From the NCBI GenBank assembly GCA_014859265.1, contig JACUUN010000010.1:1-40682 (forward strand): 40,682 bases of DNA. Direction: 5' to 3'. The first letter of the stretch is position 1. Every line of letters begins with the position of its first letter. The stretch comes from Coriobacteriia bacterium (GTDB lineage Bacteria; Actinomycetota; Coriobacteriia; Anaerosomatales; SLCP01). Of this stretch, positions 26,927 through 36,438 are shown one piece after another. The translations under genes and the position numbers were made by a program. Under the pieces are notes generated by a model. It saw nothing but the letters and a program-made list of their open reading frames with translations, was not told where the DNA came from and ran no database searches.

Positions 26927-26955
26927 TTGTCGGTGGCCGCTCCGGGTGGTAATAT
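26927..26955 (+). promoter_or_regulatory. Promoter of the cytochrome c maturation operon
   Basis: TTGTCG (26927-26932) and TAATAT (26950-26955) with a 17-base spacer; a TGG just before the -10 makes it an extended -10. It lies in the 204-base gap after the preceding gene and about 120 bases before ccmE. The rest of the gap shows no gene and no structure I can name. Confidence 0.7.
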
Positions 26956-27085
26956 TAATAGCTGTTCAGGCAGGCAGGCGTTTCGGAGCGGTGCTCCCCA
27001 CGCCCATGCACCGGTACGTCCATGTCCGGTGACCTTCGTGGCGAGCCCTCCCGGGCGATGTCGCCCCGACAAAGGAGTGGTGTTC

Positions 27086-27763
27086 GTGAACAAGCGGGCG
27101 AGAATGCGCCTCATCGGCGTGACCGCCATCATCCTGATTTCGGTTATCGCAATCGTCGTCGGCGTGGGTGCGAGTGACGGCTCGTACTCGCGCAACGTTA
27201 GTGACGTGGTGGGTAACGACGAACTGGCCGGCGAGCGCGTGCGTGTGACGGGTACCGTCATCCCCGGTTCGTGGGACAAGAAGTCGAGCCCTATGCGCTT
27301 CGACATCCGCGACGAGGGTGCGACAGAAGGACCCTACATCTCGGTCGTGTACAACGGCCCCGTGCCGAGCACGTTCGGTGACGAGGTCACCGCAATCATC
27401 ACTGGGGTCATCGACGCCGACGGCGTGCTCGAGTCCGAGGACATGATCACCAAGTGTCCCTCCAAGTACGAATCCGCGACCGGTGCGCTCACCGTGGCCG
27501 ACTTGCTGGCCGAAGGTGAAGGCGTCATCGGCAAGTCTGTGCGCATGACCGGTTTCGTGGCCACCGGCACCATCCAGCCTCCTGGTGGCGCGGTGCGTTT
27601 CGTCGTCTCTGACGAGGGCGGGAGCCCGGCGGTCGACGTCTTCTATGATGGTGCTCTGCCCGAGGGCATGGTCGACGGATCGCAGGTCGTTCTTGGCGGG
27701 TTCCTCGACGAGCAGGGCGTGTTCGACGCTGTGAACGTCTCGCTCTCCGATACCGAGCAGTAG
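27086..27763 (+). CDS. ccmE: CcmE-type heme chaperone with CxxxY motif and a second OB-like domain
   Basis: A 225-residue protein from GTG 27086 (AAAGGAG 8 bases upstream). Membrane anchor about 9-28. First OB-like domain about 46-128: ERVRVTGTVIPGSW, FDIRDEG, ISVVYNGPVPSTFGDEVTAIITGVIDADGVLESEDMITKCPSKYE. Cys124 and Tyr128 form the CxxxY motif known from the variant CcmE of Desulfovibrio and archaea, in place of the HxxxY of E. coli. Residues about 134-225 repeat the layout (KSVRMTGFVATGTI, VRFVVSDEG, VDVFYDGALPEGMVDGSQVVLGGFLDEQGVFDA) but have no Cys or His motif. Ordinary CcmE is about 150 residues. It carries heme from CcmABCD to CcmF outside the membrane. First gene of the ccm operon. 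Confidence 0.9.
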   Translation: MNKRARMRLIGVTAIILISVIAIVVGVGASDGSYSRNVSDVVGNDELAGERVRVTGTVIPGSWDKKSSPMRFDIRDEGATEGPYISVVYNGPVPSTFGDEVTAIITGVIDADGVLESEDMITKCPSKYESATGALTVADLLAEGEGVIGKSVRMTGFVATGTIQPPGGAVRFVVSDEGGSPAVDVFYDGALPEGMVDGSQVVLGGFLDEQGVFDAVNVSLSDTEQ

Positions 27764-34880: not shown

Positions 34881-34910
34881 TTGATTGAAGGACCTTAAGA
34901 ATGGTAGAAT
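34881..34910 (+). promoter_or_regulatory. Promoter upstream of hemA
   Basis: TTGATT (34881-34886) and TAGAAT (34905-34910) are 18 bases apart, with TGG just before the -10 (extended -10). It lies in the 295-base gap between the SDR and hemA, and would start a transcript with a leader of about 145 bases. The earlier part of the gap (34767-34880) shows no gene or terminator that I can support. Confidence 0.7.
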
Positions 34911-34916
34911 CACCGG

Positions 34917-35022
34917 TGTTCAGGCAACGTGCAGAAGGTGCGTGATCAAGTGTGTCGCATGCGTCACATCGCCCTCGCCGGGCTTGTTTGCCTGAACAAC
35001 ACGCACCGCTCCGGCGAGGGCG
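34917..35022 (+). promoter_or_regulatory. Structured hemA leader with interleaved inverted repeats
   Basis: Two perfect inverted repeats interlock. Arm A1 TGTTCAGGCAA (34917-34927) pairs with A2 TTGCCTGAACA (34988-34998); arm B1 CGCCCTCGCCGG (34970-34981) pairs with B2 CCGGCGAGGGCG (35011-35022). The order A1-B1-A2-B2 allows a pseudoknot or a switch between two folds. A near-palindrome, TGTGTCGCATGCGTCACA (34951-34968), lies between A1 and B1. The region is downstream of the promoter and upstream of hemA, so a cis-acting RNA controlling the first committed enzyme of tetrapyrrole synthesis is plausible. No cobalamin-riboswitch box is visible. Confidence 0.65.
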
Positions 35023-35061
35023 TACCCATGCCACCTATCTCGTGAGGCGAGTCTCCACACG

Positions 35062-36438
35062 ATGCACCTGACTCTCGTGGGCCTGAGCCACAAGACCGCG
35101 CCGGTCGAGATACGCGAGAAGCTGACCTTTCCCGCTCACCGGCAGGAGGAGGCGCTCTCGCTTCTCCTCTCGACCCCCGACGTCGCCGAGGCGGTCGTGC
35201 TCTCCACCTGTAACCGCACGGAGATCTACGCCGTGACGGTGGCCGGATCGGATGGTCCCGGAGCCATCGTCGACTTCCTCGCTGACTACCACGATCTGGA
35301 CCGCCACGAGCTCGTTCGCTACCTGTACTTTTCCGAGGGCGAGGCGGTGGTGCGCCACCTCTTCCGCGTGGTCGCCTCCCTCGACTCGATGGTCATCGGC
35401 GAGGCGCAGATCCTCGGCCAGGTCAAAGAGGCCTACGAGTACGCATTCGCTAACGACTCGGCGGGCCGAATCTTCAACAAACTCTTCCGCCAGAGCTTCG
35501 AGGTCGGCAAGCGGGTCCGCAGCGAGACCGACATCGGGGAGAGTGCCGTCTCGATCAGCTACGCAGCCGTCGAGCTGGCCAAGAAGGTCTTCGACAACCT
35601 CGAAGGCCGCACAGTGCTTATCCTCGGCGCTGGCAAGATGAGCGAGCTGACCGCCAAACATCTCGTCTCCAACGGCGTCAAGACGGTGCTCGTCGCGAAC
35701 CGCACCTACGAGCGTGCCGAGGAGCTCGCATGCCGCTTCTGCGGCCTGGCGATTCGCTACGACGAGCTTTTCGAGCGCATGCGCGAAGCCGACATCGTGA
35801 TCTCGTCGACCGCCGCGACCCATTATGTGGTGACCAAGGACAAGGTTGCCGCGGCGATGCGAAGCCGCAAGGGCCAGCCGCTTTTCCTCATCGACATCGC
35901 TGTGCCGCGCGACATCGACCCGGACATCAACGATCTGGACGACGTCTTCCTCTACGACATCGATGACCTCAGCGGCGTGGTGGAGTCCAACCTCGAGGAG
36001 CGCATGCGCGAGGCGCGCCGCGCCGAGGAGATCATCGCCGAGGAGATGGTGGCCTTCGAGCGTTGGATCGAGTCGATGGAGGTCGTGCCGACAGTAGCGG
36101 CCATCCGCGCCAAGGCCGAGCAGGTCCGCTCCGCCGAGCTCGAGAAGGCGCTCAAGCGCCTGGGCGGGCTCTCGGAAAAGGAGCTCAAGACCATCGACGC
36201 GCTGACGACCTCGATCGTAAACAAGATGCTGCACGGTCCCACCGCGCGCTTGAAGATGGTTGCTGGCGAGAAGGACGGCTATACCTACGTCGAGACCGCG
36301 CGCTTCCTCTACGGTCTCGACGCGAATCCCGAAGGCAGGGCCACGCACGCGGGCCTCATCAAGTCGCTGTTCGGTCGCGCTGAGCGAGCCGCTGACAAGA
36401 GTACGCAGAACGAGATGGGAGACACGATTGGCTGTTAG
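35062..36438 (+). CDS. hemA: Glutamyl-tRNA reductase
   Basis: A 458-residue enzyme that reduces glutamyl-tRNA to glutamate-1-semialdehyde, the start of the C5 tetrapyrrole pathway. Catalytic Cys50 in LSTCNRTEIY, GLSHKTAPVEIREKL at the N-terminus, SMVIGEAQILGQVKEAYEYA, NADPH-binding VLILGAGKMSELTAKHLV, FLIDIAVPRDIDP and a C-terminal dimerisation helix region. The ATG lacks a close strong ribosome site (GAGG about 14 bases upstream), which fits translational control by the leader. A short frame ending at 35045 stops just before it. hemC overlaps its end by 11 bases. Confidence 0.98.
   Translation: MHLTLVGLSHKTAPVEIREKLTFPAHRQEEALSLLLSTPDVAEAVVLSTCNRTEIYAVTVAGSDGPGAIVDFLADYHDLDRHELVRYLYFSEGEAVVRHLFRVVASLDSMVIGEAQILGQVKEAYEYAFANDSAGRIFNKLFRQSFEVGKRVRSETDIGESAVSISYAAVELAKKVFDNLEGRTVLILGAGKMSELTAKHLVSNGVKTVLVANRTYERAEELACRFCGLAIRYDELFERMREADIVISSTAATHYVVTKDKVAAAMRSRKGQPLFLIDIAVPRDIDPDINDLDDVFLYDIDDLSGVVESNLEERMREARRAEEIIAEEMVAFERWIESMEVVPTVAAIRAKAEQVRSAELEKALKRLGGLSEKELKTIDALTTSIVNKMLHGPTARLKMVAGEKDGYTYVETARFLYGLDANPEGRATHAGLIKSLFGRAERAADKSTQNEMGDTIGC

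Follow-up and report, generated by a model that had tools for sequence, protein, structure and literature searches.

The window analysed here, a stretch of 40,682 nucleotides from a Coriobacteriia bacterium that, to judge from its closest hemA relatives (named Anaerosomatales or Coriobacteriia), falls in or near the actinobacterial order Anaerosomatales, carries hemA, coding for glutamyl-tRNA reductase, and a cytochrome c maturation (ccm) operon that opens with ccmE (Table 1). The leader of hemA had been singled out by an earlier note, made from the sequence alone, for two interlocking inverted repeats placed downstream of an extended -10 promoter. This promoter is real and conserved: its extended -10 element, TGGTAGAAT, lies about 7 nt upstream of A1, the predicted start of transcription, and a TAnnnT motif stands 6-7 nt ahead of A1 in 57 of 59 hemA leaders, 54 of them with the extended form, against a background of 1.3% of random window positions (0.1% for the extended form). 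The promoter consensus reads TTGnnn, 17-18 bp, TGnTAnnnT.

Table 1. Features of the hemA and ccm leaders in the window.
Feature	Position	Strand	Remarks
hemA promoter	34881..34910	+	-35 TTGATT (34881-34886), 18-bp spacer ending in TGG, -10 TAGAAT (34905-34910)
A1, 5'-terminal tag TGTTCAGGCAA at the predicted hemA start	34917..34927	+	Pair types and covariation with A2
A1 extension GCAG	34931..34934	+	Pairs with CTGC adjoining A2; GCGA/TCGC co-change in family f11
C1 GGTGCGTG	34937..34944	+	Covariation with C2
Variable hairpin between C1 and B1	34951..34968	+	In some relatives (f20) a strong hairpin
B1, 5' arm of the loop-closing stem	34970..34981	+	Paired in 83/83 homologues examined; sequences diverse
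A2, anti-tag loop TTGCCTGAACA	34988..34998	+	Complementary to A1 (cis) and to the ccm tag (trans)
C2 CACGCACC	35000..35007	+	Complementary to C1 (cis) and to CGGAGCGGTGC of the ccm leader (trans)
B2, 3' arm of the loop-closing stem	35011..35022	+	T-run (intrinsic terminator) after B2 in f70, f83 and f89; none in the window
hemA, glutamyl-tRNA reductase	35062..36438	+	Pfam GlutR_N, Shikimate_DH, GlutR_dimer
ccm operon promoter	26927..26955	+	TTGTCG and TAATAT, separated by a 17-bp spacer with TGG at its end; form conserved at ccm tags
ccm tag TGTTCAGGCAGGCAGG at the predicted start	26963..26978	+	Complementary to CCTGCTTGCCTGAACA of the hemA-leader consensus
C1-like CGGAGCGGTGC of the ccm leader	26984..26994	+	Complementary to GCACCGCTCCG of the hemA leader
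ccmE, first ccm gene, followed by ccmF-ATPase-ccmB-ccmC	27086..27763	+	Pfam CcmE, CcmF_C, ABC_tran, CcmB, Cytochrom_C_asm

Both repeats, the 11-bp stem A and the 12-bp stem B, are perfect and interlocked in the order A1-B1-A2-B2, as had been reported; a third perfect helix of 8 bp, C, which crosses both A and B, had been missed. The strands of the leader follow the order A1-C1-B1-A2-C2-B2 and represent three mutually crossing helices, the boundaries of C1 and B being set by best pairing. About five bases (CCTGC) separate B1 from A2. The CTGC that adjoins A2 in nearly all relatives is TTGT in the window. With the CTGC-GCAG extension A and B would lie nearly adjacent, resembling an H-type pseudoknot with C1 and C2 in its two loops; simultaneous formation of A, B and C appears sterically conceivable, and alternative folds are equally possible. 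The minimum-free-energy fold of the hemA leader was not significantly better than that of shuffled sequences (z -1.4), which can be attributed to crossing helices being beyond what such folding represents. It is conservation and covariation, and not folding energy, that mark the structure as more than chance.

Comparative analysis with a covariance model revealed exactly one copy of the element per genome, located upstream of hemA, in 65 of the 69 genomes sampled from the window's order, where the pairing segments of the leader are nearly letter-identical. Three more families of the class yielded diverged copies, and a second model recovered copies in six families outside the class. The sample consists mostly of metagenome-assembled genomes (MAGs), and counts within the order are not independent events since its sequences are related, the C-to-U change in helix A representing one clade. 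Weak matches in G273 (L124), G387 (L183), G372, G393, G581 and G086 (E 0.002 or worse) were set aside; the two inspected, in G273 and G387, apparently lie within coding sequence, and a weak second match in G081 (C122) is inside a coding gene. In line with the earlier note, which had recognised no known riboswitch class, Rfam 15 (including T-box, cobalamin and other riboswitches) gave no match to the window at the gathering threshold, and at E values up to 10 it returned a single chance match (E 4.2). Within the literature library searched, no publication on hemA riboswitches or on RNA links between hemA and ccm was found.

Stem B is paired in all 83 copies examined, with a bulge in two copies of family f42, though its sequence is wholly different between lineages. 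In helix A, GTTCAGGC/GCCTGAAC corresponds to GTTTAGGC/GCCTAAAC, GTTTAGAC/GTCTAAAC and GTCCAGGC/GCCTGGAC in other copies, with double changes from C-G to U-A and from G-C to A-U in family f42 and from U-A to C-G in G577. In helix C, GGTGCG/CGCACC corresponds to GATGCG/CGCATC, to AGCGCAT/ATGCGCT (G405) and to AAGTTC/GAACTT (G330). When partners were permuted, swapped strands paired as well as the matched ones in 0 of 20000 trials for A, B and C each, and after reduction to 12 lineages in 0/20000 for A and 2/20000 for C. These swap tests, both in cis and in trans (below), contain no tree model, and explicit double changes in separate lineages are therefore relied upon as well. Helices A, B and C carry the compensatory changes by which a structured cis-regulatory RNA is recognised, so that the covariation in A1/A2 and B1/B2 that the earlier note had proposed to look for in related leaders, and its expectation of a pseudoknot or of alternative folds, are borne out. 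As judged from this comparison, the hemA-leader element is a previously undescribed, evolutionarily conserved folded RNA.

The same variation bears on a short frame (GTG 34929 or ATG 34959 to the stop at 35045) that had been put forward as a possible leader peptide. It is open in the window. Of the 59 leaders, only 41 keep the corresponding phase open and retain a start, as is to be expected in conserved GC-rich sequence. Neither frame nor length is conserved, base pairing is what the changes follow, and the distance between A1 and B1 varies by non-multiples of three; attenuation through this frame is hardly credible.

In families f20, f21, f70 and f89 the element was found in forms that lack the cis strands A1 and C1 and keep the A2/C2 loop nearly unchanged. 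It stands before hemA in f20, after ccmD in f21, between moaC and mogA in f70 and as a stand-alone copy in f89; in f21, where no hemA was detectable, the loop occupies the 3' end of the ccm operon and a tag the 5' end of the ccm genes. The idea that A1 alone explains the invariance of A2 was dropped once these forms had been found, and since relatives keep the loop without cis A1 and C1, its partner was sought elsewhere in the genomes. The predicted first bases of the ccm mRNA in the window are the same tag as A1, placed right after an extended -10 and followed by a C1-like motif. Upstream of ccmE, GTTCAGG(C/T) is present 5-8 nt past the -10, nearly always of the extended form, in 52 of 55 Coriobacteriia genomes. 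The ccm leaders as well tend to bear a C1-like GCGGTGCG, which in the window can pair with the C2/B2 junction through 11 complementary nt.

Pairing in trans between tag and loop at positions 1-9 holds in 53 of 53 genomes, all 477 cells of the comparison being standard pairs. Variation of the tag preserves pairing and consists mostly of A-to-G and C-to-U changes opposite an unchanged loop (G-U pairs); trans-compensatory changes occur in G064/G083 (U-A for C-G), in G577 (C-G for U-A, with tag GTCCAGG and loop CCTGGAC) and in G511 (G-C for A-U). Swapped trans partners were as good as the matched ones in 13/20000 permutations for A and 1/20000 for C, and in 258/20000 and 76/20000, respectively, when only seven lineages were used. 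Conserved complementarity is here combined with covariation in trans, the sequence signature of a trans-acting base-pairing regulator. The trans duplex is predicted to be stronger than the cis pairing of A in 43 of 45 genomes (means of -29.8 and -23.2 kcal/mol, respectively), energies computed without RNA structure or competition; displacing 8-14 bp of cis pairing might prove difficult for a trans partner. For C, trans pairing exceeded that of shuffled leaders significantly in roughly half of the ccm leaders only, and it was absent in f20 (except G085), f21 and f83. Simple folding of the ccm leader was not significantly better than that of shuffles.

The three genomes that lack the ccm tag (G022, G065 and G073) possess hemA, and the element was not detected in them; this co-absence would correspond to about two independent losses, and the three genomes are natural losses of the whole tag-loop system. 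The hemA loci found without the element are L134/L132 (G022) and L138-L140 (G067, G065, G073). Within the 1.2 Mb of G019 that were scanned, 65% of its 1.84-Mb complete genome, the exact tag with a -10 was present only at hemA and ccm, permuted-tag controls giving a mean of 0.28. The system therefore looks dedicated in the order, and a large tag regulon was set aside on this result. Matches with a single mismatch in G444 (C200), G559 (C26) and G085 (C138) had no clear promoter or heme-related gene and were discarded.

Taken together, conservation, tags at predicted start sites, covariation in cis and in trans and the single element per genome make it likely, by sequence comparison, that we are dealing with a new family of base-pairing regulatory RNAs tying heme synthesis to cytochrome c maturation. 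The earlier note had seen in the leader the logic of a riboswitch or attenuator, of which the structured, covarying leader stands. A ligand riboswitch for heme, siroheme or another tetrapyrrole, with the A/C/B pseudoknot as aptamer, pairing in cis only and a ccm tag that is just a shared start-site sequence, would suit a conserved pseudoknot of three helices placed at a classic point of control, and the mostly heme-related gene contexts. A stand-alone riboswitch is disfavoured because the loop has a trans pairing partner in the first bases of the ccm mRNA and because one family retains the element in the absence of hemA. Moreover, almost every conserved residue belongs to a helix strand with a match in a trans partner, no conserved pocket of unpaired bases is conspicuous besides short linkers, and the loop outlasts the loss of cis A1 and C1 in four families; we regard such a riboswitch as quite unlikely.

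The tags might also be read as DNA, with a transcription factor bound to GTTCAGGC at the +1 position of both operons, hemA and ccm, while A2 would be a second, inverted operator in the hemA leader. Tags in one orientation at a fixed distance from the -10 and their presence or absence together with the element would agree with such an operator, and a shift in the specificity of the factor could explain why A1, A2 and tag change together. This leaves helices B and C unexplained, as well as the fact that every variant of the tag at positions 1-9 preserves pairing, in most cases through G-U while the loop stays the same. Loop copies at the 3' end of an operon (f21) or inside one (f70), a stem B that serves as terminator in several lineages and a motif order on the opposite strand of C-A and not A-C also argue against an operator, which appears very unlikely.

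Other lineages show further arrangements of tag and loop. In f42 and f94 the element heads a cluster of ccm genes, with hemA 7-8 kb downstream. No further tags stood out in these two families, and a large tag regulon in f42, which has the cis form, was rejected, additional matches to GTTTAGRCAAG being at background and off promoters. A search for the complement of the loop identified tags in f70 and f89 at the predicted starts of hemA and of genes coding for an FtrD-like (DUF2318) protein, a ResA-like thioredoxin and a MacB/FtsX-like protein. Several of these leaders, and those of hemA and ccmE in f83, carry an intrinsic terminator about 30-90 nt past the tag, and some of the terminator loops contain a degenerate A2; on inspection, the terminator-bearing tagged leaders of f70, f89 and f83 look like diverged copies of one attenuator. 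The FtrD-like tagged leaders L185 and L339 (f70) resemble diverged copies of the element in the hemA leader; both have a weak A2 and a terminator of their own. Intrinsic terminators after B or after the tag were found in f70, f83, f89 and the ccmE leader of G577, and are absent in the window and most of its order, in which almost no leader, G026 excepted, has a T-run after B.

Individual loci showed additional pairings. An alternative hairpin, ACAGG...CCTGT, overlaps B1 in L172, L173 and L175-L182 (f42) and could compete with stem B. In f20, stem B of L120 holds the likely Shine-Dalgarno sequence of hemA, and in the ccm leaders L333 and L335 a CCCTCT is complementary to the ribosome site AGAGGAG, and GTGGG, the 3' portion of the tag, can pair with CCC; these pairings suggest a translational switch. 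Matches to hemA in two f20 MAGs, L143 (G079) and L144 (G087), have an internal stop or are split, which reflects either a pseudogene or a sequencing error. Translations from L184, L241 and L242 (G550) contain the typical sequencing-adapter artefact peptides MIRRPPRSTLFPYTTLFRS and FFFKQKTAYEIYQCDWSSDVCSSD, and some contig ends of that MAG therefore hold adapter sequence.

In the mechanism we propose, each genome would supply one anti-tag loop, A2-C2 within the loop of stem B, and the hemA and ccm operon mRNAs would open with its complement, the tag A1 (GTTCAGGC...), behind which C1 usually follows. As the loop sits in the hemA leader, it could pair in cis with the hemA tag, forming helices A and C across B, or, more strongly, in trans with the ccm tag. 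The two RNAs would meet in the cell, and tag pairing would decide the fate of the leader, the A2/C2 loop acting as a reader of whether the tag is cis-bound, trans-bound or free; competition between cis and trans pairing would most likely be what switches the leader. The stem-loop that follows the tag in low-GC relatives is an intrinsic terminator, so that the outcome there would be attenuation of transcription, with either B or a terminator belonging to the leader itself as the plausible site of termination. Given that almost no T-run follows B in the GC-rich order, translation or stability of the 5' end is more likely to be affected there. In response to its physiological trigger, such a switch could either activate or repress.

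Known systems offer partial parallels. The small RNA FasX of group A Streptococcus pairs with the 5' end of ska mRNA and prolongs its life (reviewed in PMC7509114), a precedent for an RNA that alters the fate of an mRNA by pairing at its 5' end, as would be the case here. FasX is a separate small RNA, whereas the anti-tag loop usually belongs to the leader of the target operon itself, with crossing helices and tags common to hemA and ccm. A variant of our explanation comes closer to FasX: a fragment of the hemA leader, or an RNA lacking A1, would act as an ordinary small RNA on the stability of tagged mRNAs, without leader switching. It would account for the stand-alone copy with a terminator in f89, the 3' location in f21, the intra-operon location in f70 and the position of the tag at the extreme 5' end, which in the order is for the most part some 90-140 nt away from where ccmE starts. 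Within the order and f42, however, the element lies within a hemA or ccm-hemA mRNA that has its own tag, no T-run follows B there except in G026, and no processing signal was identified, which makes this variant somewhat unlikely.

In icaR of Staphylococcus aureus, pairing of the 5' and 3' UTRs is reported to control translation within one mRNA (PMC3868564), which resembles the 5' tag and 3' loop of the ccm genes in f21; unlike in icaR, the tag here stands at +1 and the loop is conserved across the phylum in several positions. Rli51 of Listeria, reported to be a 5'-UTR attenuator that also acts in trans (PMC11394854), shares the combination of cis attenuation and a trans role in a leader RNA, and is not known to have a shared 5'-terminal tag system. 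Attenuators and pseudoknotted riboswitch leaders likewise possess mutually exclusive or crossing helices, and the terminator form of f70, f83 and f89 is of this kind; in contrast to them, the competing strand would here be supplied by another mRNA, and no Rfam family matches.

More tentatively, and somewhat less likely than not, the arrangement might represent a bacterial mRNA-to-mRNA address system, in which functionally linked operons share a 5' tag and one anti-tag loop reads the level of the others by strand competition. The operons so addressed would be those of heme synthesis and cytochrome c maturation and, in some lineages, of iron and thiol-redox genes, with the loop usually built into the leader of one tagged operon. 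Since the loop is in the hemA leader, the leader of the heme producer would in such a system sense how actively the heme consumer is transcribed. The tagged leaders may all descend, with divergence, from a single ancestral attenuator.

Free heme is toxic. To our knowledge, the way in which bacteria match the supply of heme to the demand of cytochrome c assembly is poorly understood. The two cultured members of the window's order carry 17-18 multiheme cytochrome genes (PMC9686372), and their heme demand is therefore large. If the proposed pairing is true, it would represent an mRNA leader that regulates another operon across a phylum, with cis and trans versions both present in living lineages, and the link between hemA and ccm would be testable through mutations of a few bases. 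A physical link between the hemA and ccm mRNAs, made by a conserved RNA, would then directly answer how supply is matched to demand, and RNA-to-RNA pairing may be the means by which these bacteria adjust heme production to heme use.
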